Assembly: GCA_017557345.1 (NCBI GenBank)
Contig: JAFYZR010000095.1
Span: 1-32,035 of the forward strand
Source of the DNA: Paludibacteraceae bacterium
GTDB lineage: Bacteria > Bacteroidota > Bacteroidia > Bacteroidales > Paludibacteraceae
Direction of reading: 5' to 3'
DNA: 32,035 nt
Positions 5,025 to 29,318 of the stretch are shown here, piece after piece. The stretch's first letter is position 1. Every line of letters starts with the position of its first letter. The position numbers and the translations under genes were made by a program. A model generated the notes under the pieces. That model was given only the letters and a program-made list of their open reading frames with translations, was not told the DNA's origin and ran no database searches.

Positions 5025-5058
5025 ATCCTCACCCTCCCAAAATAATGTATACTTAAAA

Positions 5059-5122: not shown

Positions 5123-5136
5123 ACGGAGGACTCCAC

Positions 5137-5316: not shown

Positions 5317-5330
5317 TAGCATTGAGAAAA

Positions 5331-5371
5331 CAGGAGCCCGAAAGCCGCTGTCAACGGTTTTCGGGCTCCTG
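5331..5371 (+). terminator. Strong rho-independent terminator after the RHH gene
   Basis: A 17-bp stem (5331-5347 with 5355-5371, one G-U pair) with a 7-base loop, followed by CTTGTT. Bases 5372-5519, between this and the DUF262 stop, show nothing further I can name. Confidence 0.8.
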
Positions 5372-5519
5372 CTTGTTAATGTCCACGTTATTTATTATCC
5401 AGCTTTGAGATGCCTCATTTTCGGGTGCTCTAATAGACCTTCAGATACAAACAGTCTAACCTTCTGACACTTTTCTGAATATACTTTGCAAGAGAAGAAG
5501 TTCCTTTCAATTAGACATC

Positions 5520-7562: not shown

Positions 7563-7563
7563 C

Positions 7564-9033
7564 TTATATCCTCCTGAAACCGTGTACATCGAAAAAATGC
7601 AGATAGTTTTGGTAGATGCCTGTTTCTTCATCAACATCATCAATCGTGTCCTGCTTAGCATTGACAGCAATGCCATCAACCGAAAGCGGCATGATTCTGT
7701 CCGCAAGCATGCTGAGAAGAGTCATCGGAGAATCTGCCTCGGTGATTGTCCTGTAAAGATTAAACGAATTGACGATACCCTCTTTGTTCGCTGTACCCAT
7801 TATATAATTCTGAGCAGTAAGCCAGCCTACATTCGTATACTGTGCTCGCATAGAATACGCCCAAATAAATGCATATACAACAAACTGATCGAGCAAATCT
7901 CGATCTGCTTTCGCCGGTTTTTCCGGGCAAAAACGATCTGCGTACAGCAAAATCGCAGTATCAAACAACAGTCTCGTTATACGGTTTCCGATACCGTTGC
8001 GGTATTTCCGAAGATCCAGAGTTTTAACTATTTCACTGTCATTGATGAGATAGCCTTCGTATTTGTCATTATTCTGGATATCAGTAAGGATATCAAAATA
8101 GTGTTTTGCATAATCGAAAAACGGCTTTCCTGCCACAATCGGGGTATCTAACTGAAACGGGCTCAGCTTATGCAAGCCAGTTACAAACGGTATTGAGGAA
8201 TGATTGAGGCTGTCTGCATAAGAAAACGCACCTTTGTAATACTGGGCATACGGGTAATTATCTGAACTTGTGACCCCCTTGAACAAATCAATGTTGTGTT
8301 CATCCAATTCTGCCGCTTTATTCCCCCGTATCCACTCTTTAAGACGATAGAGATAGTCTGTAAACAAGGCCGAGAGATCCTTCTGGTTCATATCCTCCCA
8401 GGTTTTTACGACCTTTTCTGTCTGCTCAGCATCAAGATCTGTCATTTCCCGAAGATGATATGCCTTTAAAAGATCGTGCGGATATAGCTTCTTCCCTCGG
8501 GCATTCTGAGAATCAAAGAACTGAAAAGCCTCTGAAAGGTCATCTGTTATTACAACAATCAGTTCGCAGTTTACCTTAATGTATTCAAGCAGGTCCTTTT
8601 TAACGTCCGGGGAAAGATTATTGATCCGGCGGTCAATCGCCCGATAGTTATTTGGAACATTGTGAAGATTATATGGATTCACTGTCAGTTGCTGACTCAG
8701 GAATTCAATCGATCCTGCACCTAATGCTTTAAGCAGCAAGGAAAAAGTAATTGTTCTCTGTTGCCCGTCAACGATATTGTAGCATTCCCGCTCCTTGTCT
8801 TTGTGCAAGATCAGTGTTCCTACCCGGTAAGTTTCTTTGTTTTCACTCATTGCATGCAGAATATCGTCAAGTAACTGGTTCGCGTTCTTGGCCGTCCATT
8901 TATATGGTCTCTGATACTCTGGAATCTGCAATTTAATATCGTAGATGTCCTGATCGTCTTCTGCTTGAGTAATATGATTGTGGAGAAGCAGATCTCCTAT
9001 CTTCGCAATTCCCAAAATCAGTCGATTTGGCAT
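7564..9033 (-). CDS. DUF262 protein, partner of the downstream DUF262-DUF1524 gene
   Basis: A 489-residue protein with the DUF262 signature: IPEYQRPYKW (residues 37-46), VGTLILH, and YNIVDGQQRTITFSLLLKAL (85-104). The remaining 380 residues are helical (for example FFDSQNARGKKLYPHDLLKA), as in GmrS-type proteins. I see no HxxP/GN...K His-Me-finger motif at the C-terminus, so it probably senses or hydrolyses nucleotide while the neighbour cuts. Its stop TAA is part of the sequence between the ribosome binding site and start of the downstream gene. An AGAGG element precedes the ATG. It follows the AAA ATPase gene by only 36 bp, so all three may share a transcript. Confidence 0.9.
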   Translation of the reverse strand: MPNRLILGIAKIGDLLLHNHITQAEDDQDIYDIKLQIPEYQRPYKWTAKNANQLLDDILHAMSENKETYRVGTLILHKDKERECYNIVDGQQRTITFSLLLKALGAGSIEFLSQQLTVNPYNLHNVPNNYRAIDRRINNLSPDVKKDLLEYIKVNCELIVVITDDLSEAFQFFDSQNARGKKLYPHDLLKAYHLREMTDLDAEQTEKVVKTWEDMNQKDLSALFTDYLYRLKEWIRGNKAAELDEHNIDLFKGVTSSDNYPYAQYYKGAFSYADSLNHSSIPFVTGLHKLSPFQLDTPIVAGKPFFDYAKHYFDILTDIQNNDKYEGYLINDSEIVKTLDLRKYRNGIGNRITRLLFDTAILLYADRFCPEKPAKADRDLLDQFVVYAFIWAYSMRAQYTNVGWLTAQNYIMGTANKEGIVNSFNLYRTITEADSPMTLLSMLADRIMPLSVDGIAVNAKQDTIDDVDEETGIYQNYLHFFDVHGFRRI

Positions 9034-11001: not shown

Positions 11002-13260
11002 CTATCTTTCATAGTATTTTTCTAGGTTCTCATCGCATATTTCCTCAATCCGCTTCTTCTCTTCCTCACTCAACTTCTTCCAAACCGTCCCGTCCACCTC
11101 GATGATGCCCATGGTTTTGGTGTGGCGCATCATGTTCATGTCCTCGAAGCGTTTGAAAGGATTGGAGAGGATATTCCGTTCGGCCTCCTTGTCAGTATAG
11201 CCATCTTTGGCAAAGATGCTGTTGGCCTTCTCAACCTTCAGGCCGGCCTTGCGGCGGCCCTCATAGAAGCCGCGGAAATAGGAGACAATATCGCTGATCT
11301 TCACACGCCCAGCGGCATCGGCATAGGTCAGGATCCCTTTTAGCAGGACAGGCTTATAGGAATAGCTCATGTCCATCTGCTCGACCATCTCCATGAATAG
11401 CTGTTTGCGGTTGCTATCGTCAATGAGCTTCCACCCATACAGCTCGGCGTAAGCCTGTAGGGTCTCTTCTTTGAAGTACTTGAAGGTGCGATGCTCGCTC
11501 ATGGGAACGATCAGATCCGGCACCAGCTTGCCTTCCCGCACATAACGCTCGATGGTCTCGGTCTGCACATCGACCCGACGCACAAACTCCATCTGCGAAA
11601 TCATGCCGGCAGCCTCTTCCTGCCAGTTAAAGATATCCACCAGCTCGTAATCCATGGCGTCCACAGGATAGTCAATTACTGCATCCGGCTTTTCACCTTT
11701 GCGGTAAAGATCTTCCTCCGCTTCACGCTGTCCCTTCTTGCCTACGACAGTTCCACCTGCGTGATAGTCTTTCAATTTGAAAAGGCGATGCAGCGAATAG
11801 GGCATGTTATACTGGCTGGCATTGTCCACGAAGTCAAATATCATCAGGTGATCCTTGCCTTCCGCCGTGCGCATACCGCGGCCAAGCTGCTGGGTGTACA
11901 GCACCTTCGACATGGTAGGCCTCGCCATGAACAGCACTTCCGTCTGCGGGCAGTCCCATCCCTCGTTCAGCAGATCACAGGCGCAAAGTACCTTGATTTC
12001 ACCGGATGCGAACTTGGCAAGTTGCTCGTTGCGTTCGGAAGTCTTCATGCTACCGGACACAGCGACCGCATTAACTCCAGCTGCACGGAACAGCTCCGCA
12101 ATTTGCTCGGCGTGTTTCACGGAGGCGCAGAACACAACGGTACGCTTGTCCTTCACATAGTCCAGCCAGGTATCTACGATCAGCTGATTGCGCGCGGTCA
12201 CGCAGATCTTCACATCCAGATCACGGATGTTGTACTGGACGCTGTTAAAGCGCACCTTGGTCATGTCGATGTTTGTGTGGATGCGTATGCAGCGGACGGG
12301 AACCAGCGCACCGATTTCCACAGCGGTCTGGATATCCAGTTTATGGGCGGTGTTCTTGAAGATCTCCAGGATATTAATATCGTCAGCGCGCTCCGGCGTG
12401 GCAGTAAGCCCCAGCGTGAACTGAGGCTTGAAATAGGCCAGCACCTTCTGATATGTATCCGCGGAAGCGTGGTGTGCCTCGTCGATGATCAGATAGTCAA
12501 AGGCATCCTCCCGAAACTGGTCCAGATTCAGCGCTACGCTCTGGATGCTGCCGCATACCACATGGGCGTCCGGCTCCCTGAGATTGTCCGCGTACTTGCC
12601 GACGGTTACCTCAGGCCATAGGTCGCAGAAGGTGTTATAGGCCTGATTGACCAACTCCATCGTGTGAGCAACAAACAGCACTCGGCCGCCGCAGTGTTTT
12701 GCGTCCATGACCGCCGTGACTGTTTTTCCCGTTCCGGTGGCGTGATACAGAAGGGCTATTGTTTCGCGGTTTTGCCGCATGGTTTCCAGTGAATCCAGAG
12801 CCTCTTGCTGATACTCCCGCAACTCCAGCTGATCGGCCTTCAGCGCGCGTCCTCGCTGCGTGGGGAGATAATCCTCGATCTCCTTGAAGCGAGGGTCGCT
12901 GCCGAGGAACACACGCAGTTCGTCCTTCACCGTTTCCGGCTGCTTCTGCATTTGCCGCACAGCCCAGCGGTACACATCCCAGCCAAGGTGGATCATGCTG
13001 TTCTGCTTCAGCAGATCGTCATAGAACTTGTCCTGTGATACCAGCCGCGGATTGTGGGAGGCCTCATCGTCGATCTCAATGGCGACACGGGTCGCTCCGT
13101 TTTCCAGCACAAAGTCAGCAAAGCGAGCGTTCTGATAGATGTCGTAGAACGGGTACTGTGAATACAGATACCCAGCTTTTTCTGCCCCGAAGGTATCTGC
13201 AAAAAGGTCGATGAACAGATCCTCGGCCACACTGCCGGAGGCTGATCTGTATTCAGGCAT
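11002..13260 (-). CDS. PD-(D/E)XK-like nuclease fused to SF2 (DEAH) helicase
   Basis: A 752-residue protein. Residues 45-100 resemble a DUF559/Vsr-like nuclease: FADFVL with D49, then VAIEIDDEASHN (59-70) and a terminal HLGWDVYRW strand. An SF2 helicase follows, with Q-motif-like LELREYQQEAL, Walker A ATGTGKT (174-180), DEAH (260-263), GLTATPER, and motifs V/VI NEGWDCP and QQLGRGMR. The roughly 250 C-terminal residues are helical and unassigned. It resembles type I/III restriction translocases, but no cognate specificity gene is adjacent. ATG 13260 has AGGTGA upstream. It lies 37 bp after the broken HTH gene, in the same orientation. The third positions are GC-rich, unlike the block just upstream. 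Confidence 0.85.
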   Translation of the reverse strand: MPEYRSASGSVAEDLFIDLFADTFGAEKAGYLYSQYPFYDIYQNARFADFVLENGATRVAIEIDDEASHNPRLVSQDKFYDDLLKQNSMIHLGWDVYRWAVRQMQKQPETVKDELRVFLGSDPRFKEIEDYLPTQRGRALKADQLELREYQQEALDSLETMRQNRETIALLYHATGTGKTVTAVMDAKHCGGRVLFVAHTMELVNQAYNTFCDLWPEVTVGKYADNLREPDAHVVCGSIQSVALNLDQFREDAFDYLIIDEAHHASADTYQKVLAYFKPQFTLGLTATPERADDINILEIFKNTAHKLDIQTAVEIGALVPVRCIRIHTNIDMTKVRFNSVQYNIRDLDVKICVTARNQLIVDTWLDYVKDKRTVVFCASVKHAEQIAELFRAAGVNAVAVSGSMKTSERNEQLAKFASGEIKVLCACDLLNEGWDCPQTEVLFMARPTMSKVLYTQQLGRGMRTAEGKDHLMIFDFVDNASQYNMPYSLHRLFKLKDYHAGGTVVGKKGQREAEEDLYRKGEKPDAVIDYPVDAMDYELVDIFNWQEEAAGMISQMEFVRRVDVQTETIERYVREGKLVPDLIVPMSEHRTFKYFKEETLQAYAELYGWKLIDDSNRKQLFMEMVEQMDMSYSYKPVLLKGILTYADAAGRVKISDIVSYFRGFYEGRRKAGLKVEKANSIFAKDGYTDKEAERNILSNPFKRFEDMNMMRHTKTMGIIEVDGTVWKKLSEEEKKRIEEICDENLEKYYER

Positions 13261-13297
13261 GGTGAGTCACCTATTTTCTATTTCTAAACTGATCGCG

Positions 13298-13633
13298 TTA
13301 CTGTATTTTCCCTAAACGGACTAATCGAGAGGCTATAGCACCCTCTGTCCTTTTAAACTCATTACAGATGTCCCGGTTTGAGAGACCTTGTTCAAACATC
13401 CGAATTAGCTTGTCGTCTGCCTCTTGTGACCATGGTTTTCCCGCATTCTCTGGAAGGCTTCTTTCTCGCTTTTCTGCCTTTTCCGCTTTTTCTAAAAGTG
13501 TCACAGCAAGGTGTAGCGCTCTTATAACATCTGGTTGATTACAGCTATCACCATCGGAGAGCACTTAACCTGTTTTTGGATCAAGCCCATCTGCAAGCAT
13601 TTCAAGTAATTCTTTTGCATATGTAATGTCCAT
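13298..13633 (-). pseudogene. Myb/SANT-like HTH gene interrupted by an in-frame ochre codon
   Basis: From ATG 13633, which has AGGAGG just upstream and lies one base after the MazG-like stop, the frame reads 22 residues (MDITYAKELLEMLADGLDPK then TG), then TAA, then continues in the same frame as VLSDGDSCNQPDVIRALHLA and on to the C-terminal HTH: KPWSQEADDKLIRMFEQGLS and IASRLVRLGKI. In proteins of this type that I recall, LDPKTG is followed by Glu, so a GAA-to-TAA change is the simple explanation. GTG directly after the stop might allow reinitiation to make an 88-residue product. The intact protein would be a small DNA-binding regulator. Confidence 0.75.
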
Positions 13634-13634
13634 A

Positions 13635-13955
13635 TTAAGCCTCCTGTACTTCAACTAATAGAATCCGTTTTTCAAAGCTGCCGCGCTTGGCGGCCTTTTT
13701 TGCACGCACTTGCTCCAAATCTTCCAGAGTATATCCACGCGCTTTTGCTGCTGCGTATATTACTTCCAGCAGATCGGCCAGTTCTTCAATATTATGATCT
13801 TTGTGATACTCTGCAAGCTCTTCGTCTAATTTGGCATCAAGCATACGAAGATAGTCCTCTTCGGAGAGAATTTCTGTCATGCAGGTTTTGCCGGACGCTT
13901 TTATAATTTCAGGAATACGATCGCGCACAAGCTTATTATACTGATGTTGGATCAT
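13635..13955 (-). CDS. MazG/HisE-like nucleotide pyrophosphohydrolase
   Basis: A 106-residue all-alpha protein with YNKLVRDRIPEII (residues 6-18), typical of the phosphoribosyl-ATP pyrophosphohydrolase-like group, and the metal-binding helices LDEELAEY (43-50) and EELADLLEVIYAA (57-69), whose E/E/D residues bind Mg. It would hydrolyse a non-canonical or alarmone-type nucleoside triphosphate to the monophosphate and pyrophosphate. No other his gene is near, so histidine synthesis is unlikely. It begins 12 bases after the methyltransferase stop and ends one base before the broken HTH gene, so it is part of the defence transcript. MazG-like enzymes are known to alter nucleotide pools in phage defence; its use here is inferred. 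Confidence 0.85.
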   Translation of the reverse strand: MIQHQYNKLVRDRIPEIIKASGKTCMTEILSEEDYLRMLDAKLDEELAEYHKDHNIEELADLLEVIYAAAKARGYTLEDLEQVRAKKAAKRGSFEKRILLVEVQEA

Positions 13956-13967
13956 TATTTCACCCGA

Positions 13968-14807
13968 TTACCATTCGAATTCATCGTTTCCAAGATTAGT
14001 AATTACAAGTTCTGGGCCCCTAGCGCGGTCATGAGCACTATGAAATAAATCATACTCATGGATGTGATACTCGGCATATATTTCCCGAATTAAATCGCAG
14101 TCGTCGTAGGTTATTATCCACGGTATGGTTTCCAACTGCTGCCTAACGGTGTTTCTAAAGGCGCGATGATCTTGTTCGGAAAAATATTCACTGTATAACG
14201 ACTTCCCCTTAATCACATATGGTGGGTCAATGTTGTAAAAACAGCGAGCATTCTCATCAGCCAGTTCTCTAGTAATTAATTCATTGGCGTCAAGATTGAA
14301 TAACCGTATTCTGTTACGAAGATTACCCACATCGCGGATTCTTTCGATTATGTTTTCCTTGTTAAAGCGGCATCCGATGCTGTATTCACTTTGTTGTTCC
14401 CTGCCTCCAATTGGCCCAGCAAAAAGAACTCCAGAATAATTGACCCGGTTCAAGTATAATGTTGCAAAACCATCTTGGAGTATGGTCGACGCCGGATCTG
14501 AATATCTAGTCTTTTGAATAGTTCGTTCTGCAAGGCTGATCGGGGTGTTACGGACAAGTGCAATCAAGTCATCTGTCTGGAATAATGCAGCCATCCAAAA
14601 GTGAAATACATGTTGGTCGCTATCATTCATTATGGCGTTATCAACTATGTTGTTTGTCAAAAGGTATAATCCCACTCCAAACCCGCCAGCAAACGGCTCC
14701 ACATAAATTCGATTTCGCCAATTGTTTTTTTCGACCAGCCTTTGCACTCGCTTCGATAACTGTGACTTACCGCCAGGATATCGGAGTGGTGATAAAGTTT
14801 TTCCCAT
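13968..14807 (-). CDS. D12-class (Dam family) adenine-N6 DNA methyltransferase
   Basis: A 279-residue protein with the alpha-class motif order: LRYPGGKSQL (residues 8-17), AdoMet motif I VEPFAGGFGVG (36-46), and catalytic motif IV NIDPPYV (192-198). The length is near that of Dam. Residues 95-190 should hold the target-recognition domain; the site cannot be read from sequence. It starts five bases after the stop of the giant helicase and is therefore cotranscribed with it. The likely role is to modify host DNA so that the adjacent helicase complex ignores it, as the methyltransferases of DISARM and type II Druantia are thought to do. Those systems use other methylase classes in many cases. 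Confidence 0.9.
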   Translation of the reverse strand: MGKTLSPLRYPGGKSQLSKRVQRLVEKNNWRNRIYVEPFAGGFGVGLYLLTNNIVDNAIMNDSDQHVFHFWMAALFQTDDLIALVRNTPISLAERTIQKTRYSDPASTILQDGFATLYLNRVNYSGVLFAGPIGGREQQSEYSIGCRFNKENIIERIRDVGNLRNRIRLFNLDANELITRELADENARCFYNIDPPYVIKGKSLYSEYFSEQDHRAFRNTVRQQLETIPWIITYDDCDLIREIYAEYHIHEYDLFHSAHDRARGPELVITNLGNDEFEW

Positions 14808-14812
14808 TCCGA

Positions 14813-17800
14813 TTACCCCTTCGCTATCAACATACGGTATTCCATAAATGTGTTTGGCAGCCAGTCTGACAAATCGTATGGATTAACGTACATGGTCCTA
14901 TTTGTATTCTGCGGCTTTCGATACAATGCTGGAAGCACCTCAAACTGAACCGGGATTTCACTTTCCTGAATATTCATTTCATCACAGATTAGACGCTTGA
15001 GCGGAATCAAGAAATGCTGCTGCGTATTTTTTTCATAGTCTTCAGGAAGAAATCCGCTTTCAGCATAATCTAATAGCTGTAAACCCAAGTGCCGATCGAA
15101 GAAATCGTGACTTCTCTGATTATAGTAATTGTCAAGACAGTTCTTACATGTACGAGCACAATCACAGGAGGATAGAATGGTTCTAGCCCGTTTCAACACG
15201 TTTTCCAAGCAACTACCAATCAGGGAAGAGTAGCCTGCCCCGCTAGTTAGATTGTCATAGAAAAACAGTTCTATATGAAGCAAATCGTTACTATCAATTC
15301 GAGACATCCAACCACCATTTACTTCATTGAAATCGATATCAAGTTCCTGAGAAATGGCTTTTTTGATTGCTTCAAGAAGTGTTGTAGCTGCTGTCCGCAA
15401 AATGAGCCGTTCCTGAGCTGTCCTTCGACCGACCAATCTATTGCTGTCATAGGTTATATCCAGCAAAAACATGTCCGTCAAGAATTCATAACCCAAGAAC
15501 ACTTCTCTTTCAACGAATTCATGTCTGCACACAGGTGCGTTGTTATGGAAAGGCTGAGATACTTTGATTTTTTGCTGACCTTTCGGATCGGCTACTTCAG
15601 CACCACCGCAACAACGGCAAATGTTAAACCCATGCTTTGATTTTCCCATGTTTACTGTAAGGACATGCCGGTTTTCCAACTTCGCAAATCGGAGCTGCCC
15701 CTTATAATGGCTCATTTGCTGTTCTTCCGGTACATGAGAATAATATGGTGCTTCTGCATAGGTTTTATCTTCGTCGTCATCTTCAAGCTCTACGGCGTCA
15801 CCTCGTTCAGGTGCAAATCCCCAAGGTCTTATCATCTTTCTTGTTTCTACAGGTGCATGACAGTATGGGCAGGAATCAATATTATCCTCTTTATGCCCAA
15901 ACCAGTTACACTCTGTGCATACAAGAATATCCTTATAGTACTCGCTATTATCAAAATAGTATTCTGCTTGATTTGAATCATACCCAAAAGGCCTCGGATT
16001 TGCATAAATACCACCACTTTTATATGTTGCTTTGTCAATGGTTACAAATCGACCAGGGGCATATTCACTTATCGCAACAGCAATATCCCTCTCTGGAGCA
16101 TATTTAATCTGGTACGGATTTCTACCTCCATAGGGCGAGGGTTCTTCCACAAAAAACCGAACTACATTTTTGGGGAAAGAGTACGACGGAATAAAACCCT
16201 CCGCATAGAATACATCAAAAGCTGGCGTTTGTTTGTCACCATGTAAATACTCATTTCTGTTCTGCTCACTCAGAACCTTTTCACATATTTCATTGAATGT
16301 CGTGGCTGTATTCTCTGTAGGATATGGGAGGGCATTAAGATGCTCTAAGAATGCAGTTCCATACTTCTCACAAAACTCTATTATCCCGATTTCTGAGATG
16401 CTGTCATATTGAAGCATTTGATCGCTAAACATGAAAGAATTCAATGCTTTCATATTAATATGACGTTGCTGAATCTTTGGATTATCCCGATCAATCCAAG
16501 GGCGTCGAGGTTCGCCAGAAATCATTTCATCAGGATTTTTAAAGTAATGACTATCGTGCACCCCGCCATACGCATAAGTCACAATTGTTGAAATACCGGC
16601 ATTCTTTCTTCCTGCGCGGCCTGCGCGCTGTTGATAGTTTTCGCGCATAGGAGGAATATTGCGCAAACCAACTGCTGTCAATGAGCCAATATCAATACCA
16701 ACCTCCATAGTTGTAGTACAGCTCAGTACATCAATTGACCGCTCACCATTCTCTCCGGCATCAATGTCCTGGAACCGAATTTCATAATCCTCTGTGCGGC
16801 TGATTAAATCGCTGTTGTTATCCTTATGGGACAGCTGGGCCGTATGCTCTTCTGTATCAATGCGATGGATAACATCTTCTTGATCCAGAGCTGCCAAAAC
16901 AGGCTGACGCCAAAAGTCAAACCGTGAAAGATCTGAATATGCGATTTGATGGACATCAACCTTTTTAAAGCATGCTCCGCAAAGGTCTCCCAGCATAAAG
17001 GGGGAGATCTTTCCACATTTCCCGCAGCGATACCAGGTAAAATCTTCACCTGTTGTTTCAATTTTGACAGCTGCAAGTTTTATATAATACTTTCCAGATG
17101 AAGATGCTGCAAAAAACTCAGTCTTGATTGCCTCAAGGAGCTTATCTACCTGAGTATCATCCAAGCCTAATAGTGCCTGTGTTCCTGCAATCCAATCCGG
17201 ATCTAAAGCTTTTCTGAAATCTGACGCGAGTCCAAACCGGTCCGTGTCTGTTTTGCTTCTACCGGGAAGTCGTTTTCTGATGTCATCAGGAATCCGCTCT
17301 CCTAATGCTGCATGATCGTCCATAACGTCCCAAAATAGCAGGGATAAGGCTTGGAATAAATAGTTTTCATCTACTGCTATATCATCGTCATATGACAGAT
17401 CATCCAGCATTCTCTCAAAGAATGTATCCAAAGGCGCAAGGAAGCCTAAGCCGATATCCTTGAACGAACGAGGGCTTTCTGTAAAAAAGGTCAACAGTTG
17501 CTCATAGTATTCTTCTGGAGGAGAAGAAAAATAGTCCCTACATAAATCCTTATAATTTACACGTCTTCCTTTCCTTTGCCGCCGCTTGAAAGTCTTCTTG
17601 TCCTCCTCAAATTTGTCGTGGCTCTTATGAGAAAAGAACGTTGTATTATTCTCGATACACGCCTCTAAGAACGCTGGATACAGTTCATCCATAGAAGCGC
17701 CTTGACTGTCCAGCTTTTTGCTCGCGAGTAATACAATCTGCCGGTAAGCATCGGCGTCAGAGGACTTCGACAAGTCAAGTGCCAGCTTCGCTGCGTTTTG

Positions 17801-20002
17801 TCGAGAATCAGAGAACAGTAGGACTTTCTTCCCTTGATTGACTAAACCAGACCTGGGTGGCTGTAATTCAAACTGCGCTTTCGTAAGATTGTAGAATGGA
17901 ATATTGCCCTTTGTAGCAAAATCAGTCGGTTTCTTTACCGGCATAATCTTTTTGCACTTGGGACAACTTCCAAACTCAAACACACCATTTTTCGATGGCT
18001 TTTCAGAGTAAAGAACTCTAAGCAAACATGGATCATCTTGCGGAGTAGTAAATAGCTTCCCGCTGAACGGGTCTAACGCGCCAATCTTATCATTTCGTTC
18101 TGGTATATAATCTTCCGGTGTGATATAAAGCAACATTTCAACTAAATCGTCAGAACCACCGCTGATCCCTTTAGTTGAAAAAACATGCCAGTATCCTGTT
18201 CCGGTCACTTTTTTTGCATAAACCTTGAAATACAGAGCACCACACTTTGTGTGGTTTTTAAGTTCATAAATCCTTGCTCCGCATTCACATTGCTCTTGTG
18301 GAACGGATATTACTTTTCCAAAACGAAGCTTTTCTCTATCAGAATACTTCACCCCGGCACATGTGCACTTCGGATTAGAACAAGCATATATACCCTGTAA
18401 TCCGCGAACAAACATATGAAGGCGGACGGGGAAGAGCAAGTTGCCGCCCTTCTCTGCGAGTGAAGTAATAACCAATAAAGAATCCAATGCGTCTGCGGCA
18501 TTAGGTTCACCCGGGAAAACACTTGCCTCAAGTTTGGAATATGCTGTTGCCCCTTTACGGCATTCCCGATTCAGGTCTACAAATGCCTGATAGCGTGGAA
18601 GGTTATCATACAACCACTCTTGTGCAGATGAGAGGGTTATGCTTTCTGAAAGGGAGACACCAAATACGCTGGCAGCAAAGTCTCGAATCCGTTTTGTGGC
18701 CTCATCCCCGTATACCTGTGTTGTTCCTATTGCCGCAAGCGCTGTAGCATTTGTTGGAATGAGCCCTTCATCCGGAAGTGGATCTTTTTCTCCCGTCAGG
18801 AACACACATAGATCACTGTTTTTTCCAGTAAGCCCATAATAAAAATCGTTACGGGCGTTTTCATCGTCAGGCATACTGGCTGTAGTAAGGATAAACTGGG
18901 TTTGATCTACCGTAATCTCAAGCCTATCTAATAGTCTGTCCAGCAACAATGCGATTTCTCCGCCAGCAGAGCCTCGATACATATGCGCTTCGTCCAGAAC
19001 TATAAGCAGTTTATTATCAGCAGTTTCGTGTAACCAGTTCTTAGTTTCTTCCCATATTTTAGCCTCCCGCTTCCTCATAAGCATATATTCAAGCATGGAG
19101 TAGTTTGTAACTAGTATATCCGGTGGGCAATTAACCATTTCGAACCGGGTGATGAATTCAGCATCATAGGGGAGCGGATTGTGATCGTTTGTTTCAAGAT
19201 GTTCAATAAACCTTTCCACGCCATCGCTACCATATCGGGCAGGAAATTTATTGATCTTCTTAAGACCTTCAATCCGTACTCTTTGTTTTTGCTTTGCGTC
19301 TTCATCACCATTTTCGTCAATCAAATAACGCGTCCTATATGCTTGCGCCAATCGTTTACTCTTCTCAGATTTAGCGTCACCAGCATACGCCGTTCTGCCT
19401 GTATACATCCCAAAATGGGGGATCCTGTCTGCATGAGTATCTTCAGTAAAAATCTGCATAAACTCTTCGCTTCCCATGATCCTTCTAAAACGTGCCAACT
19501 GGTCGGAAACCAGCGCATTCATGGGATAAACGATAAGCGTTCGAACAGCGTTGTGTTTGAATGATTCCGGGTGATTACGAGCTTCATCGATGCTCTTTGT
19601 CATGATTGGCCATAAGAAACACTCGGTTTTTCCTGAGCCGGTTCCGGTAGATACAAAGAGATCTTTTCCAGAAGCATATGCTTCAAGTGCATCGACCTGA
19701 TGCTTGAATGGAGACGAGAATATACCGACATTTGCTTCTACAAGGCGAAGCAAGGTGCGTTTTACACCCTCATCAACGTGAGTCAATGTGCTAATGCCCT
19801 GGGGGACCTTTTTATATGATGCTGCCGTTTCGATATACGGCTCCCGGGAAATATTCGTATTGATACTATCGCCTGTGCCAAGTAAATCATCGGCATAAAG
19901 CAGCAGAGTCTCGCTATTTGCCAAATAGTCAGACTTAATATAATCATAGAGGCGTCCTTTAATTGCAGCATAGTATTCGTGTACGCCCTTTGCGTTAGAC
20001 AT
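14813..20002 (-). CDS. Giant DEAH helicase with DUF1998 domain (DruE/DrmA-DrmB-like)
   Basis: A 1729-residue SF2 protein. Walker [11 protein letters not shown] is at residues 118-127 and DEAH at 337-340; motif [11 protein letters not shown] lies near 1128 after [11 protein letters not shown]. Several Cys clusters look like zinc ribbons ([36 protein letters not shown]). The C-terminal DUF1998 region carries GAGYSSLIG and [15 protein letters not shown] (about 1610-1625). Size and order resemble DruE of Druantia. DISARM splits helicase (DrmA) and DUF1998 (DrmB) into two genes, and MrfA is far shorter. ATG 20002 follows GGAGGGG and overlaps the upstream gene by 8 bp. The presumed role is NTP-driven translocation on invading DNA. 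The Druantia assignment is an inference without alignment. Confidence 0.85.
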
Positions 20003-21005
20003 AGTTGCCCCTCCATAACGTTCTAATGCCGATATTCTGCAACATCATTTCTATTGTCGGAAGAATTCCCGCTGTAGTAACAAAAGTTATACGATTAAAG
20101 GCGTCTCCCTTTGGCCACGAAGACAGTAAAAGAAAATAATACTCCCTTGTGGGCAATTGAGCAGATAACTTGATTTCATAGTAGGTGTCATCAATTTTGT
20201 TGAACCAAGCTACTGCTGGCTCTCCGTAATGCTCTTTCAATGCAAATAATAGTCTTCTTGTCTCATACGAAGCTAAGCAATCTTTATCAGCAATGTTGGC
20301 TATGTCGGCAAAAAGCAATCTGCTGTCATCTTCGCATATAATACGGTACATAGTGTTAAATGCTCTGTTTCTTGCTACAGTTCGCCTTGTCCGAATCTCC
20401 GTCCCCCACGAAGATGATGGCGGTTTTTTCAAAGTGGGATTAAAGAACTCCAGTGTACTTTGATCAATATCGCGGTATTCAAAATCGAGAGGATTGTACA
20501 ATCCAGAGATGTATTCGTCAGAAGTCAGCGTATCTCTAAGGAAAACGTCAAATAGTGAAGCCTCATTTTGGGGAGTAGTTGTATAGAGACCTAATCCAAG
20601 GGAAAAAGCAATCTTTCCTGGTATTCCAAAATATAAATGTCCACAACCTACTGAAACCGTTCGTCCATATGTAGCAATTGCTTCAAATCCTCGGTCATCT
20701 GTCGTTAAGTATCCAGTTTCTTCATACGCCTTCCTACATTGGATTATGAAGCTGTTGGAATCACGGGTGAATCTTTTGCTCTCAAGATTCAAATGCTTCT
20801 CAAATTCCGCTTGTATCCGTTGAATCCATTCCGTTTGAGCCTTTTTACTGATACCTATTCTGCCACCTTCAACACTCCGTGCAGAATAGAGCAATGATAA
20901 CGCAAGCGCAGAGTAGCATAAACGATAACAATAATCAGAATCCGATTCTCCTTTGTATCGAACAATGGAGAGTTCGTTCCCAATTGTTCTAAGCAAATCA
21001 AACAT
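19995..21005 (-). CDS. Unrecognised 336-residue protein of the DUF1998-helicase operon
   Basis: I do not recognise this family. It starts [19 protein letters not shown] and ends RTLWRGNYV. It is soluble, mixed alpha/beta, with no membrane segment, P-loop or evident nuclease triad. Notable stretches are [20 protein letters not shown] in the middle and [20 protein letters not shown] near the end. ATG 21005 is preferred over 21062 because it overlaps the upstream stop (8-bp overlap) and has GGAGTGG upstream; the longer form would add 19 residues read from inside the neighbour. Its end overlaps the giant helicase start by 8 bp, so it is tightly coupled to the genes on both sides and probably forms a complex with them. 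It could correspond to a Druantia accessory protein. Confidence 0.8.
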
Positions 21006-22662
21006 CACCGTACCACTCCATAAGCAGTCCCTTATGTGCACACTTTCCAGAAAAACCCGCATATTTGTTCAACCTGGCTGAAGCATTATATGGGGAAATC
21101 CCATAAGCTTCTATCGAATAGGGAATAATCGAAAACGCGAGGAATTCATTAAGCATTTCTTCTGAGGTCATTTGTTCCGAGAGTGTAGCCGATACAACTG
21201 TCGGGAATCCAAGTTCGGACATGATTTCTTTACAAAGGCGTTGAACTCTGCTGTTAGGTTCCTTGTATAGAGGAAGGCATAATTCTTCCTTTATTGAAGA
21301 AGGATCTTCATCCAACCCTTTCAGGGTTAATAATTCAGGTATATTATTTGCATTAATGTACGTGCAACTGACTAGCACTTCTTCCGGAAGGAGAAGCGCT
21401 ATTGTTTTGTCGAATTCTGCTGTAATAATTATGATTTTTCTCTTTGCACTTCTCAGAATTGGCAGCAGCTCCATTTCGTTGTAATTGCCAATAAAGGCAT
21501 CAAAAAGCACTATGCGGTCATCAGAATCCAGGATAGCTTGAATATCTCCTGTTGTGATCTCCTTTCTATAAGGGACGATGGTCGGATTCTGGCTTCCACA
21601 TAAGGTGTTTGAAATACACCTGGCTAAAGTGTGGCCGAGTGCTTGATTACAAATGATAGGCTTGTTGTTAAAAACTGTATTATCTAGAAAGCCAAGGAGC
21701 AACGAAAAAAACGGCATGGTCGGGTCTATTCCAATACTTGAGAAATTGTAAGAAAGATACTCTCTGAATTCATCCCTGTCGACCGGGCACAGGACATCCG
21801 CTGTGTCACCATAGACTAATGCCATCGTCGCTTGTTTTTGCTGTTCTATTTGATCAAGTAGACTTTTACAATAATCCAAAGTGGCCAGAATGGCAGCATT
21901 CTCTTTCTCAAGTTCTTGTTTTCGTGCTTCGCTCTCTGCTTGTTGTTCCTGCATCTTTTTGACGCGAATATCCTCAGCTTGAAGGTCTTGTCGTAATTTG
22001 TCTATCTTCGAGGCAGCCTCAAAAAGCTGTTTTTGCAAATTATCTATCTGTTTATTTTCCTCCCGCAAGGAAGAGGCGGTCTTTCTTTCTTTTTCCAGTT
22101 CTTTAGATATGACTTTAATTGTGCCATCTTGTCTCTTAATTTTCTTTTCCTTTTCTTTCAGTTCGGCCTTATGCATCCGCTTTAGGTCCTCAACTTGCTT
22201 CGTTGTTGCAGCAGAATTGTGAAGTTCCTTGATTTGTTCCCTTTCTGCAGATAGAGCAGCCACTCCAGCACAAATAGCAGATATACGCTCTTCGCTGAAA
22301 CCTTCATCAGAGAATCGGAAAAAAGGCCTGACAAATGAGGGGCCTCCTAATTTGGAAAAGGCTATAATATATGCGTAATCAATTTCTCTTCCGTCTTCAA
22401 GTTGTTCTTTAACTAATGCAGGAATCTTTGGAACCCACGAGGATAACAACACTTCTACCATCTTTGCTGTTAAGTTGGAGTGCAGATTATTTGCAATGAG
22501 ATTCCTTCCTACTTCCTCGCCTACACTTTGAGGCCTACGCCCCGACATTAACGCAGAAAAATCCTTTGGGTACTTTTTAAATCCAGTGATCAGCTCTTTG
22601 TACGGAAAACAAAGGCAGATGGATCTGATTTCTTCATCTGTTAATGCAGTATAGTATTTCAT
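20998..22662 (-). CDS. Coiled-coil protein with a degenerate P-loop-ATPase-like C-terminal domain
   Basis: A 554-residue protein in three parts. Residues 1-130 form an N-terminal helical domain. Residues about 135-280 form a long, highly charged coiled coil (for example LKEKEKKIKRQDG and EEQQ/EKEN heptads). Residues 285-554 form a globular domain. In the last, KPIICNQALGHTLARCI (334-350) sits where a Walker A would be but lacks GxxGxGK; RIVLFDAFIGNYNEMELL (383-400) looks like a Walker B strand; and KIIIITAEFDKT (409-420) resembles a sensor strand. This suggests an AAA+ fold that has lost NTP hydrolysis. The start overlaps the CoiA-like gene stop (ATGA) and the end overlaps the next gene by 8 bp. 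The likely role is structural, bridging or regulating the helicase. Confidence 0.8.
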   Translation of the reverse strand: MKYYTALTDEEIRSICLCFPYKELITGFKKYPKDFSALMSGRRPQSVGEEVGRNLIANNLHSNLTAKMVEVLLSSWVPKIPALVKEQLEDGREIDYAYIIAFSKLGGPSFVRPFFRFSDEGFSEERISAICAGVAALSAEREQIKELHNSAATTKQVEDLKRMHKAELKEKEKKIKRQDGTIKVISKELEKERKTASSLREENKQIDNLQKQLFEAASKIDKLRQDLQAEDIRVKKMQEQQAESEARKQELEKENAAILATLDYCKSLLDQIEQQKQATMALVYGDTADVLCPVDRDEFREYLSYNFSSIGIDPTMPFFSLLLGFLDNTVFNNKPIICNQALGHTLARCISNTLCGSQNPTIVPYRKEITTGDIQAILDSDDRIVLFDAFIGNYNEMELLPILRSAKRKIIIITAEFDKTIALLLPEEVLVSCTYINANNIPELLTLKGLDEDPSSIKEELCLPLYKEPNSRVQRLCKEIMSELGFPTVVSATLSEQMTSEEMLNEFLAFSIIPYSIEAYGISPYNASARLNKYAGFSGKCAHKGLLMEWYGDV

Positions 22663-24113
22663 ATCTGCCCTGCCATTATATACTCTAGGGCTTTAACGTT
22701 ACTACTGCCTCTATTCCTACAGTCTTCAATATAGGTTTCTGCAACCTTGCTCAAATGGATACCGGCGATTAATTCATCATGAAAAGGCTCAATTACATTG
22801 TAGTATTTGCAAATATCTATAAGTCTCTTTTCAGCCGTAACTACGGTAGATTCTGGAAGCAGATATACAGCAGTCTGGTAATTTCCTTTGTACTGTATAA
22901 TTCTTGTCCCCTTTAATAGATGATAACGACCAGGAGACAACAAACGGAAGCCATCTCTTCCACAACTATAAAACGTTGATCCTTCCTTTACTTCGACGAT
23001 GTTTGTGGACTCGATTCTGCGGTCATATTTCCGGGTTGGGAGATCAAGGTTTCCAACGGATACCTGCAATGAGGTGTTGGCTTGACTAATGTGAAGCGAC
23101 TTCGAACAGTCTATGGCATATAGTTCGCCATTCTTTGAGATTTGTCCTGAATCACACGATATATTACTACGTGGCCTGAGTTCAAATGTTGATGTGAGAT
23201 AAACAATTCCAGGCCTACATTTCGATTCGCCATCAACCATGTACGAAGGAGGCCATACTAATGTGACACGCTCTGCTTTTTTTAGGTTGTAACCAAAGTG
23301 CCGCATTGTCGCTTGAAGATCAGCTGATAATGATAATATAACAATACTAGCACCATAGACTGTCCCTCCAAGAGCTGGAATATCAACAATTGACCCGATT
23401 GATACATGCGGTGAATAGCGGCTCAGTTTTTCAATATGACTTTTCTTAAAAGCAATCAAATAGTAGTTTGTGTCTGTGTAAATAATCCCATCTGTATGCC
23501 TCTTTGCAATGGTTTGATCACGGTCATTTGTTTGGAGTTTGAAAAATGTTGGGAATTCAATCTCCTTTAGTATGTCATAATTTGAAGTGATAGTTTTTCC
23601 GTTATGCGACCTACTACGAATTGAGATACAACATGAGTTTGAGTTTAACATCAGCGGGAACTTTACTGGATTATCAGGGGCAAAATTCGACTTGTTTATC
23701 AAAACAGGCTTCATAAAGTGATATGAACCCGCTCGGATTTCTAATACATAATCTCCTTCTTGGTACTCAGCTATCTTGTCTTCAGAAAAGGAAATAGAAA
23801 AAGAGAACAATTGCTGTCTAATATCAAAAAAGATTTCTGCATGTGAGTGAGCCCTTTTCTGTGCCTCGGCAACTACGCGTTCTATACCCGTTCCAGTCTG
23901 GAGTAACCCACCAAGATATAACTCGCAGTCCCTGTCTCGATTTCCACGCAAATGGCGGAAATGTGGAGCCACCAGTTTGCTCTGGGCCGCTGCTATATGG
24001 ACTTCTTCACCACAACATAAGCACTCATATCTGAATGGCTCATCAATATTGTTTTTCGCTACTTCATCTGCCGAAACTGTATCTCTAGTTATAGTATCGA
24101 ACGCAAGACGCAT
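22659..24113 (-). CDS. CoiA-like zinc-site protein of the defence operon
   Basis: A 484-residue protein. Residues 28-64 carry a metal-site pattern as in the N-terminus of competence CoiA: YECLCCGEEVHI (C31, C34), then APHFRHLRGNRDRDCELY (H51, H54, C63). CoiA proteins add a nuclease-like domain; here about 400 residues of unrecognised, strand-rich sequence follow instead, with pieces such as RTDG/GIIYTDTNYYLIAFKK. I chose ATG 24113, with GGGGGAG five bases upstream, rather than the TTG at 24164 that would overlap the helicase end. It is the first gene of the overlapping set and may be a DNA-binding sensor or nuclease. No clear catalytic D/E-x-K triad can be named from reading alone. Confidence 0.75.
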   Translation of the reverse strand: MRLAFDTITRDTVSADEVAKNNIDEPFRYECLCCGEEVHIAAAQSKLVAPHFRHLRGNRDRDCELYLGGLLQTGTGIERVVAEAQKRAHSHAEIFFDIRQQLFSFSISFSEDKIAEYQEGDYVLEIRAGSYHFMKPVLINKSNFAPDNPVKFPLMLNSNSCCISIRSRSHNGKTITSNYDILKEIEFPTFFKLQTNDRDQTIAKRHTDGIIYTDTNYYLIAFKKSHIEKLSRYSPHVSIGSIVDIPALGGTVYGASIVILSLSADLQATMRHFGYNLKKAERVTLVWPPSYMVDGESKCRPGIVYLTSTFELRPRSNISCDSGQISKNGELYAIDCSKSLHISQANTSLQVSVGNLDLPTRKYDRRIESTNIVEVKEGSTFYSCGRDGFRLLSPGRYHLLKGTRIIQYKGNYQTAVYLLPESTVVTAEKRLIDICKYYNVIEPFHDELIAGIHLSKVAETYIEDCRNRGSSNVKALEYIMAGQI

Positions 24114-24156
24114 TTTTTCTCCCCCATCAACCCTTGACTGCTTGAAAACGAATTGC

Positions 24157-27100
24157 TTACCCAACCACTAATTTATTTGTCTTCTTCAGATACTTCGCAG
24201 GGATCGGTGCATCCAGCCGCCAGGTGATATTCATGGGCTTTTCGCCATCGTGTTTGACGTAGTTTGCTGTGCCGAGATAGGTGTACGCCTCGGCACCATT
24301 GGTGATCCGGTCGGCTTTGAACTCACGGACAAACAGCAGTACCCGGCTCCCGCGCTCCTTATGATGGATATACCTCTGGCCAGTAGAGGATCGCTCCGCT
24401 GTGGTGCTCTGGCTCTGCCAGTGGAACAGCCATTCGTTGATCGAATAGTCATTATACATGGTTGTGGGCGAATAGTCCTTGTCGGCCTTGTTCAGCGTCA
24501 CGAAGAACACGTCCAGCTTCTGATCTGGCAGCCATTTCACACCCTCGCGCACAGTAGCGGGCTTCAAGAAATCCAGGGCAACCAAAAGCTGATCACGGGT
24601 GTATGTACAATGCAAATCTAGCGGGCAGTCAAGGCCAACGTCTACCGGAGCATCGATGAAGTCAATGCGATCATACTGATATTTCAGCAGTTCTATCAGC
24701 TCGCCCAGCATCACCGGGCTGTCCGCCAGCGCATAGAGATTATCCCAAACCTCGTCACTGCTCCAATCCTCGGCGGCCTTACCCCAAACCGTGATATAAA
24801 ACATCTGGAGCATCCGCTTTTCCAACTCCGGAAGCTGATCGAAGTTCACATCATCCAACCGCGGCAGCACATCCAGCAGGAAGGAGATCCAGCGGCGAGA
24901 GTCGATAACGGCCAGCCGGGACATGGCCTTGGTCATCGTTTCTTCTAACGGCTCGGTGAAGTCATCGATCACATCCGCCCGCGCACACAGCCGAGAGAAC
25001 GTTGCAAACTTGTAGATGCTCCGTGGATCAAGATGGTAATAATCCAGAAAATTGGTAAGGTTCAGCTTCAAACCGGTGTCTTCTTCAAAGGAGGCGACGC
25101 GAGTAACCAGCCCCGCTGTATTACCATACGAAGCACGTATATTATCGAGTATGTACTTGGCAGCCTTCTTCTCCAACTGGATGTAACAGCCCTTGGGAGC
25201 CGACACGAACCCGTCTTTGATCTCACGGGTGACGCTGCGGGTTGTGTTGGAGAGCAGCGCGGCAAATTTGTCCTCGAAGTTATACTTCCTGTTTGCCTGG
25301 CCGATGAAGTCGAGAACGGTCAGGCACTCTTTGTCCTCTGCTAGACGCAGGCCGCGACCGAGTTGCTGTAGGAAGATCGTCAGCGATTCCGTGGGACGGA
25401 GGAACAGCACCGTGTTGACATCTGGAATATCAACGCCTTCGTTGTAAATGTCCACGACGAAGATAAAACGCACCTTGCCGGAAATCAGGCTGTCCTTGGC
25501 GCTGCGCCGTTCTTCGTCCGGAGATTGTCCTGTCAGGAACATGGACGGGATGCCGTGCTCATTGAAATACTTGCACATGAATTCCGCGTGATCCACGGTA
25601 ACGCAGAAGCCCAGACCCTTTACATCATCAATGTCCGTCACATATTTCAGTAATGAAGACACTACATGATCGGCACGCTGCTGGGCCACAAGGCCGCTCA
25701 AGGTATAGATGTTGGAAAGCTCCATTTTATCATACCCACCGGCAGACCATTTCAGCTTGTCCAGGTCCACCGTATCGGTCACGCCAAAATACTGGAAGGG
25801 GCAGAGCAACTTGCGGTCGATAGCTTCCGGTAGACGGATCTCCGCCGCAATACGGTTGTTGAAGTATCCGAGGATGCTCTTGCCGTCCATACGCTCCGGC
25901 GTAGCGGTCAGACCCAGCAGAATCTTCGGTTGGTAGTATTCCAGTAGCTTCTGATAGGTTGGGGCTGCCGCATGATGGAACTCATCTACGATGATGTAAT
26001 CATAGAAATCCGACGATGTCTTCGTGGTGAAATTCTGACTGTTGAAGGTCTGTATGGACATAAAGAGACTGTCCAGGCTGTCCGGGCGATAACTGCTCAC
26101 AAACATTTCCCCAAAGTTGGCATCCTTTAGAACTGCCCGGAAGGTGTACATGCTCTGTTTCAGGATTTCCTCTCGGTGGGCGACAAACAATAGACGACAG
26201 GGCTTCCCGGCATTCTGCTTTTGGAAACGTTTATAGTCCATGGCAGAAATTACCGTTTTGCCTGTGCCGGTAGCTGCAACGATCAGATTGCGGGTATAGC
26301 CGCGGACAGTACGCTCAGCCTCGAGCTTATCCAGAATCTCCTGCTGATAGGAGTAGGGCTGGATATCCATGGTATAGATTTCGGGATTATTGCTGTCATA
26401 GTACTTTTCTGCCTGCAATGCGCGGACCAGACGCTCCCGCTGGCCCTCGTCGTAATACTCGAATTCCTTATCATTCCAATAGAACTCAAAGGTCGCCGTG
26501 ACCTTATCCACGGTCTCCGGAAGATCCTTTTTCGTGATTTTTGTGTTCCATTCCAAGCCGCTGGTCAGAGCCGCATTGGAAAGGTTAGAGGAGCCCACAT
26601 AGGCGGTCGTAAAGCCCGTGTCCCGATAGAAGATATATGCCTTCGCGTGGAGTCGGGTAATCTTGGTGTTGTAGCTGACCTTGATTTGTGTATTGGGGAG
26701 CTTGCGCAGTTCCTCTATGGCCTTCACATCGGTCGCGCCCATGTAAGAGGTCGTGATGATCCTCAACTCGCCGCCGTTTTGTGTGAAGGTGGTCAGCTCG
26801 TCCATGATAAGGCGCAGACCACTCCATTTGATGAAGGACACCAGCATGTCGATCCGATTGCAGGAGACGATTTCCTTTTTGAGCTCGGTGTACATTTGCG
26901 GCTCGTGGACAGCGCCGGTGAACAGGCTTGATTGGGCGATGGAAGTCTCCGGCCGGACAACCTCAGCTTTCTCATCAACGGCCAAAATACTATTCTTACG
27001 GTCAAAAAGCGCAAGAAGCTGCTCCGCCCGCTCCGCAACCGAGAGCGCGTCGAAGTCAGCTTCTTTTGTTTCCGCCTGGATTGTGGTGATAATCTGATTG

Positions 27101-27336: not shown

Positions 27337-28110
27337 TTAGGCAGTAATGGTTCCATCTTTGACGTGATAACTGATCCTGTGATCCTCGCAAAACTTGATG
27401 GTTTCCGCTGCTCGTTTGTTGAAGAAATCCTTGTGCTTTTTGTATGCAGTGACTTCTTTACTATAGTTCATTCTCCCGAAGATAATACGATCAACGAATC
27501 CGACAGCCTCCAGAATCGGCATTAATTCTTGCGTACAGATATTGGGCGTAGGGTACGGCTCGATACTCACCCATGTTTTGCATCCAGCATCATGGAGCGC
27601 TCTCAGTGCAGCCAGCCGTTCCTGAAACGGAGCTGATCCCGGCTCCATTCTCTCTCGGAATGCCTCGTCGAGAGACACCAAAGTGATACCGTATTCATTG
27701 CCCTTAGATAATTCGGAAAGCTTGATTGGCAAAAATCCTTTTGTCAATACCGAGCATTTGATTCCGGCGGTATTCAGCTTTTTTATTGCGGCAATACTCA
27801 TACTCTGTACTTCGGGATACTCATACATAAACGGATCCGTTGTAAAGCACATGTGAAGAATTTGTATCTTATCTTTGAATTTTGGGATTTCCACATCCAG
27901 TAGCTCCAGTGTGTTTTCTACCAGCGCTGGCTCACACCAGTCCTCGTATGATTTGACTTCACCGAAGCGTTTTTTCTGCAGAAATGCATAGCATGGATAC
28001 TTACACCCGTGGGAGCAGCCAAGTACGTGATTCATCGTATAATCGCCATATTCGACTTCTGTTTTATAGATGAGAGTTTTTCTCTTTATAAACTTTTTAA
28101 TTTCTTTCAT
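27337..28110 (-). CDS. Radical-SAM-like protein with CX3CX3C motif (TcmP partner)
   Basis: A 257-residue protein (start MKEIKKFIKRKTL). VLGCSHGCKYPCYAF places cysteines at 32, 36 and 40, that is CX3CX3C rather than the canonical radical-SAM CX3CX2C. The rest matches an SPL/DUF5131-like TIM-barrel (HMCFTTDPFMYEYPEVQ, GIKCSVLTKGF, LVSLDEAFRERMEPG, WVSIEPYP). This spaced motif is the defining feature of the three-Cys-motif family that occurs with TcmP, the product of the gene immediately upstream; their codons overlap (ATGA). ATG 28110, preceded by GAGGTGG, is preferred to GTG 28119. The target is unknown; whether it binds a 4Fe-4S cluster is open. The PLD-helicase gene follows after 30 bp. Confidence 0.9.
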   Translation of the reverse strand: MKEIKKFIKRKTLIYKTEVEYGDYTMNHVLGCSHGCKYPCYAFLQKKRFGEVKSYEDWCEPALVENTLELLDVEIPKFKDKIQILHMCFTTDPFMYEYPEVQSMSIAAIKKLNTAGIKCSVLTKGFLPIKLSELSKGNEYGITLVSLDEAFRERMEPGSAPFQERLAALRALHDAGCKTWVSIEPYPTPNICTQELMPILEAVGFVDRIIFGRMNYSKEVTAYKKHKDFFNKRAAETIKFCEDHRISYHVKDGTITA

Positions 28111-29318
28111 CTCGCCCACCTCAACGAGACCTTCTGCTTATTGGTTTTCTCCTCCATGAACTTAGATGGCCGTCCGGTTCCTGTAACAGCCGGGTCACGC
28201 AGCACTTGAAGATTGCCATATCCCTCCAGATCTTTTAACGCATCTCTAATATCCTTAGTTTTGCAGATCGGACCATACTTCATGAAGAACTGTGCCATAG
28301 ACTCGTTTAGCGACGTATATTCAGAAAACTGTGAATAGTGATCTTCAACTTTTCGCCGGATTTCATCTTCGTCGACACTTTGGTTGTTAACGTCTTCCTG
28401 AAATAGTGTAAACTGGCCACCGTTTTGGACATCTTGCCAAGCTTCCCAGCGGCTGCAGATGTTGTCTACCATCAGCAAGCACCCATCAGGATGATTTGTT
28501 AAATGAATCATTCTGTATTTTGGTCGCTGACCAGGTTTGATCCTCAATGGCATGTTGAGCACATATGCATAACTCTGTGAGAGCCTACGACAATACTGCT
28601 CTGCAAAACGCTCCTCTGCCTCATATCCGTTTATACGCCCTGCTTTATAGTCTTTGATAATAGCCTGCCAGTAGTTGCCACCTGCGATCTCGTTCAGGTC
28701 CTGTACCGATTTATCTGTAGCCGTCAGCTTTGTGGGATCATATTCAACCAGATCATCAAACAATGTTGGATCATCCAGTTGAAGCTGAATGCCCAATGCG
28801 TTACACGCTTCTCGGATAAACCCAAATGAGTTGAGATTAATAAGCAACTCAATAGAATTGAAGGGCGCAATCGCAAAGCTGTCAAACAGAGAGCACCGTA
28901 GGGCTTTGATGCCATACGGATCAATATACAAGAACACATTACGATTGCGGCTACCCCGCAAGAGTCTTAATATATGATCCTCGTACTTTCCGGAAACGAT
29001 ATTTACGTCCTGATACCCTTGAAGGTTATTCCTCAGATCGTCAGCATAGTTCAAGTCGATGAACGTGGTGCGAATCTGGGGAGAGGCCATCTTTGTTGTT
29101 GTCAAGCATTCCTCTATGAGATCCAGCGCTATCAGCGGCGATCCTGGTTTGCCGTCATCAAATTTTCCTTTCCCCGCGAAACAATCAATATATTCAAGGG
29201 GCTTACGCGTGTACAGGATCTTCTGAACATAGGGTTTAAAATAACAACCAAGCAGTTGGTCTTTTACCTCAGACCATGGTTTTTTCTCTTTGAAGAAATC
29301 ATCGTTTTTCTTTGACAT
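28107..29318 (-). CDS. tcmP: Three-Cys-motif partner protein TcmP
   Basis: A 403-residue protein near the usual TcmP length. The start region, KKPWSEVKDQLLGCYFKPYV then YIDCFAGKGKFDDGKPGSPL (residues about 42-61), is characteristic: the FAGKG loop looks like an AdoMet-methyltransferase motif I, and FLYIDPYGIKAL (near 130) resembles a motif IV with DPYG. The C-terminus seems winged-helix-like. TcmP always occurs next to the CX3CX3C radical-SAM-like protein, as here. The joint function is unproven, but the pair is frequent in defence islands. The start codon has GAGG six bases upstream. It follows directly on the truncated Mod fragment, which may supply the upstream transcript. Confidence 0.9.
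   Translation of the reverse strand: MSKKNDDFFKEKKPWSEVKDQLLGCYFKPYVQKILYTRKPLEYIDCFAGKGKFDDGKPGSPLIALDLIEECLTTTKMASPQIRTTFIDLNYADDLRNNLQGYQDVNIVSGKYEDHILRLLRGSRNRNVFLYIDPYGIKALRCSLFDSFAIAPFNSIELLINLNSFGFIREACNALGIQLQLDDPTLFDDLVEYDPTKLTATDKSVQDLNEIAGGNYWQAIIKDYKAGRINGYEAEERFAEQYCRRLSQSYAYVLNMPLRIKPGQRPKYRMIHLTNHPDGCLLMVDNICSRWEAWQDVQNGGQFTLFQEDVNNQSVDEDEIRRKVEDHYSQFSEYTSLNESMAQFFMKYGPICKTKDIRDALKDLEGYGNLQVLRDPAVTGTGRPSKFMEEKTNKQKVSLRWAR

Follow-up and report, generated by a model that had tools for sequence, protein, structure and literature searches.

Five consecutive genes on the minus strand of a 32,035-nucleotide stretch from a Paludibacteraceae bacterium (contig JAFYZR010000095.1; the whole stretch is called the window here) encode a very large helicase, an adenine DNA methylase and three accessory proteins, and raise the question of which defence system, known or new, they belong to. 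A preliminary description, made from the letters alone, had placed the helicase in the Druantia family and suggested either a new subtype or an existing type, for example type II, in variant form. The host is a gut-type bacterium, and its genome is a draft of 155 contigs with 6.84% contamination. As judged by profile matches, the operon is a DruA-less variant of the Druantia type I lineage (DruB-C-D-E) that carries an added D12 adenine methylase; the suggestion of an existing type in variant form thus stands, with DruA missing and the methylase added. The genes are:

13968-14807, minus strand: D12-class N6-adenine DNA methyltransferase, 279 amino acids (aa), with motifs EPFAGGFG and DPPY
14813-20002, minus strand: DruE, 1729 aa, a YprA-family SF2 helicase with DEAD, Helicase_C and MZB (DUF1998) domains
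19995-21005, minus strand: DruD, 336 aa from the ATG at 21005, with a longer open reading frame (ORF) from 21062
20998-22662, minus strand: protein best read as a divergent DruC, 554 aa, with a helical N-terminal part, a coiled coil (about 156-279) and a C-terminal part (about 291-542)
22659-24113, minus strand: DruB, 484 aa from its ATG, with a CoiA-N-like zinc site (CxxC...H...C) at the N-terminus

All five ORFs between 13968 and 24113 are open, with no internal stops, and the junctions are tight (-4, -8, -8 and +5 base pairs (bp) for B-C, C-D, D-E and E-methylase), so that the coordinates and overlaps of the operon as first described are borne out.

Assignment of the operon proteins

The helicase matches the PADLOC DruE1 profile with 1855.5 bits over residues 2-1725 of its 1729, in agreement with the earlier view of a Druantia-family helicase operon, and scores far lower against DruE2 (621.7 bits). 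Its three domains are recognised by Pfam, the helicase motifs are intact, and a CxC...CxxC site is also present. The best sequence matches in the PDB are 9tu7 and 9wae, with helicase chains of 2108 and 1970 residues.

Two of the accessory proteins, which the preliminary description could match to no known part, turn out to be near full-length matches to named type I subunits. The first matches DruB1 (PDLC00003, 2.3e-83, profile positions 1-477 of 477), and its ORF can be extended from a TTG start at 24164 to 501 aa; the third matches DruD1 (PDLC00008, 1.2e-90, positions 1-330 of 338), a model that also matches 29 of the 30 rows in the DruD family alignment. With PDLC00003 and PDLC00008 fitting this well, the subunits of this lineage appear to be in PADLOC already. 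The family alignments were built from reference loci (29 of 33 for DruD, 28 of 34 for DruC and 25 of 29 for DruB, with near-copies and split, cut or second copies set aside) plus the window, and alignments A3 and A4 also took in the phage-labelled locus L002.

The resemblance of DruB to CoiA noted at the outset is real for its N-terminus. The zinc ligands Cys48, Cys51, His71 and Cys80 (numbered on the 501-aa ORF) are conserved in 26/26 rows, while the CoiA_N profile itself matches weakly (E 0.14). Since no acidic residue is invariant across the 26 rows, the likeness is confined to the zinc-binding end, and the reading as a CoiA-like nuclease is rejected. When aligned by hhalign to DruB of Pseudomonas putida, the 26 rows reach 95% (E 2e-8). 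A profile search of the PDB returned a single meaningless match for DruB (E 0.98) and none for DruD.

The second protein was described as a coiled-coil protein with a dead ATPase, and this reading is upheld: its C-terminal part (about 291-542) has a MoxR-like AAA+ fold with a degenerate P-loop, and its two PDB profile matches are both coiled-coil matches. From its place, architecture, fold and weak profile matches, we take it for a divergent DruC whose AAA+ domain is dead. Its own DruC profile match (E 0.042) runs through the coiled coil, and the DruC1 models match 10/30 and 5/30 of the family rows; one of the 30 rows matches DruG2 (5.6e-5). The possibility that all three accessory proteins match named subunits is therefore borne out by sequence for two of them; the remaining one is linked to DruC by these other signs.

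Comparison with known systems sharpens the assignment. What the operon shares with type I Druantia is the gene order B, putative C, D, E, closely packed, and a helicase covered almost throughout by the DruE1 profile; unlike type I, the operon lacks DruA (PF14236), carries an extra D12 methylase and has a short, divergent DruC (554 aa). Type II, given as DruMFGE and also called type IV CoCoNuT in the accessible part of the source (PMC12458937), likewise combines a DNA methylase, accessory proteins, DruE and a coiled-coil partner, but its DruM is a cytosine methylase whereas the enzyme here is of the D12 adenine class. Membership in type II is rejected by the DruE1 and DruE2 scores above and by the lack of DruF or DruG matches (E up to 1) in the three accessory proteins; the DruB1, DruD1 and DruE1 profiles together point to the type I lineage instead. 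Type IV is described, in what could be seen of PMC8565338, as DruE, DruF and DruL; neither DruF nor DruL is among the matches listed for the operon proteins (for DruE, the best 25 of 35). With DISARM and ARMADA the operon shares a YprA-family helicase, a methylase and a link between methylation and DNA defence, but the operon matches listed include neither a PglX-type methylase nor a separate BrxHII gene. DISARM membership is rejected, DruE matching DrmA at best with 8.3e-11 over 87 residues and the NCBIfam DrmAL model with 0.0034.

Relatives of the operon and the absence of DruA

A single scan for DruE motifs common to the window and L002 yielded 39 related loci from named genomes, a group that is enriched by construction because those shared motifs defined it. 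In 31 of the 39, B, C, a DruD-sized ORF and E follow in this order on one strand (the size and place of the ORF served to assign D; L023 and L037 have a cut B, and L023 also a split C). Most junctions overlap or almost touch, and a few leave about 100 bp or more between the genes. The recurrence of the B-C-D-E order in these loci shows that the arrangement is more than chance.

Conservation of the order of all five genes, as opposed to four, was found besides the window only in L011 and in none of the 38 remaining fetched stretches. The L011 unit has junctions of -4, -14, -1 and +7 bp (longest ORFs), and identity to the window is 71.4% for DruE, 61.3% for the methylase, 47.6% for DruD, 42.5% for DruB and 36.8% for DruC. 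These five are the only proteins common to the window and the L011 stretch, which extends 2.4 kilobases upstream and 9.1 kilobases downstream of the unit; within it, a MobA/MobL gene lies on the upstream side and a serine-type recombinase on the downstream side. Since the flanks are unrelated and the identities range from 36.8 to 71.4%, the five genes have travelled together and diverged as one block. Composition offers only a hint of such acquisition: G+C is 0.41-0.44 inside the operon (2-kilobase windows) as compared to 0.505 (12001-14000) and 0.517 (24001-26000) at its edges, and the sign stays weak because G+C is similarly low (0.42) at 5001-9000. Across 11 of 11 compared pairs, which are not independent and include a few cut or split genes, identity falls in the order E > D > B > C.

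The lineage is scattered but rare. Most of its hosts belong to Bacillota and some to Pseudomonadota, Planctomycetota and Thermodesulfobacteriota, and many come from gut or rumen by their titles. Scans with the DruD model found the window's own genome alone among 395 genomes of the class, 200 relatives and 395 genomes of the phylum (overlapping samples); the DruB model, run on 393 genomes of the order, retrieved that genome and three marginal matches of 18-19 bits. Among 296 relatives of the L011 genome, only that genome itself was found. Viral contigs held no further five-gene loci, and plasmids held no DruD and no near DNA, their DruE relatives all lying below 60% identity (164 records, 8 of them covering at least 80%).

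Two partial DruE matches came from phages. One is L002 (1193-10858), an unannotated faecal contig labelled "Bacteriophage sp."; it bears genes resembling DruB and DruC together with a DruE truncated at the N-terminus, and no DruD lies in between, which is either a deletion or an assembly join; its upstream ORF presumably encodes a transposase-like protein. In L044 (603-18770, Anaerobiospirillum succiniciproducens), DruBCDE is followed on the same strand by a second set of B, C and a DruD-sized ORF, at which the contig ends.

According to Doron 2018, type I Druantia is reportedly DruABCDE. The same five-gene definition appears in the portions available of two further sources (PMC13316683, PMC7251935). 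Profile searches found DruA in 0 of 31 genomes with PDLC00002 (all relatives) and in 0 of 31 with PF14236 (30 of those relatives and the window's own genome), and in 3 of 3 plasmid controls each time. The 31 relatives are the genomes of 31 of the 39 loci (all but L017, L020, L026, L028, L031, L035, L037 and L046), including that of L045, in which DruB was not seen. In the window's own genome, DruA (DUF4338) was not found by PF14236, and PDLC00001 likewise returned none in a search whose control was silent as well. None of the 39 fetched stretches shows DruA, and in 27 of the 31 four-gene loci the stretch reaches 600 bp or more upstream of DruB.

In a quick DruE tree with long branches, the window and the other DruA-less rows (37 in all) form one group with a Shimodaira-Hasegawa-like approximate likelihood ratio test (SH-aLRT) support of 99. 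The eight plasmid rows that have a DruA close by branch apart from it, and L046, whose stretch also lacks DruA, sits on the longest branch, in neither group. These observations bear on the reading that the locus is a decayed, nonfunctional type I system that has lost DruA, as the published five-gene definition might imply. We consider this the least probable of the readings weighed here, since every ORF is intact and a DruA-less order found in several phyla and in one DruE group would be unexpected for a dead relic.

A different arrangement is seen in L003 (6376-17430), a haloarchaeal plasmid, where DruE lies behind two genes, one without a match and one with a partial DruD1 match, and a larger DruA stands on the opposite strand among genes that include an FtsK-like one. 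The annotation of L004 and L005 is like that of L003.

The methylase and a possible mechanism

The identification of the fifth gene as a D12 adenine methylase holds (Pfam MethyltransfD12 4.4e-21, both motifs; PDB 7m6b 8.6e-10). Its best PADLOC match is PD-Lambda-5_B (6.2e-93), a point of likeness to PD-Lambda-5, and it also matches MTase_II (1.9e-69); unlike in that system, the enzyme sits in a Druantia operon, and PD-Lambda-5_A is not among the matches listed for ten window proteins (the best 25 for four of them). The operon copy is the sole D12 match in its genome, and a related D12 methylase behind DruE was seen only in the window and L011.

We lean, if modestly, towards the reading that the locus is a DruA-less defence system of the type I lineage in which B, C and D read the DNA, DruE is the motor and the operon-borne methylase marks self. 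That B, C and D would form a reading module is suggested by analogy with type III, where, in the accessible part of PMC13192584, DruE is a helicase-nuclease and DruH the likely sensor; their faster divergence fits such a role. DruB may contact DNA through its zinc site, and DruC could act as a coiled-coil scaffold or switch whose AAA+ domain is non-hydrolysing. The three would load DruE, the sole recognised motor of the Druantia part, onto incoming or replicating phage DNA, and the complex would spare host DNA because of a short sequence in it that carries the mark of the methylase. The C-terminal nuclease domains of type I and type II DruE are reported only as inactivated, as far as PMC12458937 could be seen, and B, C and D of the operon show no recognisable active nuclease. 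Because none is recognised in these three, phage DNA might be blocked, unwound or handed to host nucleases. A review (PMC12904381), in its accessible part, links escape from type I to methylation of the phage DNA at specific sites, and given this reported link an adenine methylase would be a natural self-mark.

Several observations weigh against this reading. The methylase is coupled to the system in just 2 of the 32 four-gene loci (31 fetched and the window), and these two represent one evolutionary event, since they are sisters in the DruE tree. A D12 match is absent from 12 of 31 genomes with the system (30 relatives and the window's own); most such systems must therefore manage without that mark, and a general requirement for a D12 methylase is rejected. 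The links to the P. putida proteins are also uneven, hhalign giving just 2.7% for the DruD rows and a poor 39% (E 3e-4) for DruC.

The same counts favour a simpler view, in which DruBCDE is a complete unit and the methylase a passenger, or a separate one-gene function (an orphan epigenetic mark or anti-restriction) that shares the transcript: 30 of the 32 four-gene loci have no related D12 gene in their stretch, some of which end soon after DruE, and the 12 genomes have none at all. We regard it as a serious explanation but a less probable one, as the methylase has been kept 5-7 bp behind DruE in both sister loci while other neighbours differ, and this coupling spans a deep divergence (36.8% identity in DruC).

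Neighbouring genes and implications

The transcript may extend past the five genes into a gene on either side, neither of which has a counterpart in L011:

24157-27306, minus strand: PLD - ResIII helicase - DUF3427 protein (type IV restriction-like), ending 43 bp before DruB; membership unproven
13635-13955, minus strand: 106-aa protein, starting 12 bp after the methylase; membership unproven

The upstream protein (domains from Pfam) matches PADLOC mREase_IV with 763.5 bits and DrmC with 8e-5. Its short distance to DruB on the same strand, together with homologues of 92.7% and 81.5% identity near DruBCDE in L015 and L027, raises the prospect of a larger unit in which this PLD-helicase supplies the missing nuclease to DruBCDE and the methylase. 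Such a unit is improbable to us: among the fetched stretches the protein occurs in L015, L027 and, distantly, L046 only; in L015 and L027 it sits downstream of DruE; and its family is, by its PADLOC label, a known type IV-like enzyme.

The 106-aa protein, which we take to resemble an NTP pyrophosphohydrolase, has no Pfam match at 0.01; homologues occur in L015 and, behind DruE, in L031. Further on in the region 11002-13955, which includes this gene, lies a ResIII helicase that weakly matches the MTES_1575 nuclease, and a relative of this helicase accompanies that of the 106-aa gene behind DruE in L031. Elsewhere in the window are overlapping genes for a radical-SAM protein and a TcmP three-Cys-motif partner (27337-29318; weak PADLOC PDC-M30 and PDC-M41 matches), and a restriction-like module of two GmrSD_N (DUF262) genes in overlapping ORFs (5520-9033), one with DUF7834 and the other with a sub-threshold GmrSD_C match.

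The preferred reading, a DruA-less defence of the type I lineage with its own methylase, leads to a more tentative proposal: DruBCDE with the D12 enzyme may be a separate Druantia subtype whose co-encoded adenine mark decides between self and non-self, within a distinct DruA-less lineage that either can do without the function of DruA or has replaced it. Neither type I Druantia lacking DruA nor a D12 methylase in such a system is described in the literature examined, which leaves out many subscription papers and was accessible in part, so that novelty does not follow. How type I Druantia works is unsettled in that literature. A natural system that does without DruA would suggest that B, C, D and E make up the core, and the divergence order E > D > B > C that DruC and DruB are the subunits pressed hardest to change. 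One that also encodes a methylase would allow a direct test of methylation gating in this helicase family, as is thought to occur in DISARM-type systems; if the subtype is indeed separate, the gating proposed for type I would become testable with one self-contained operon.

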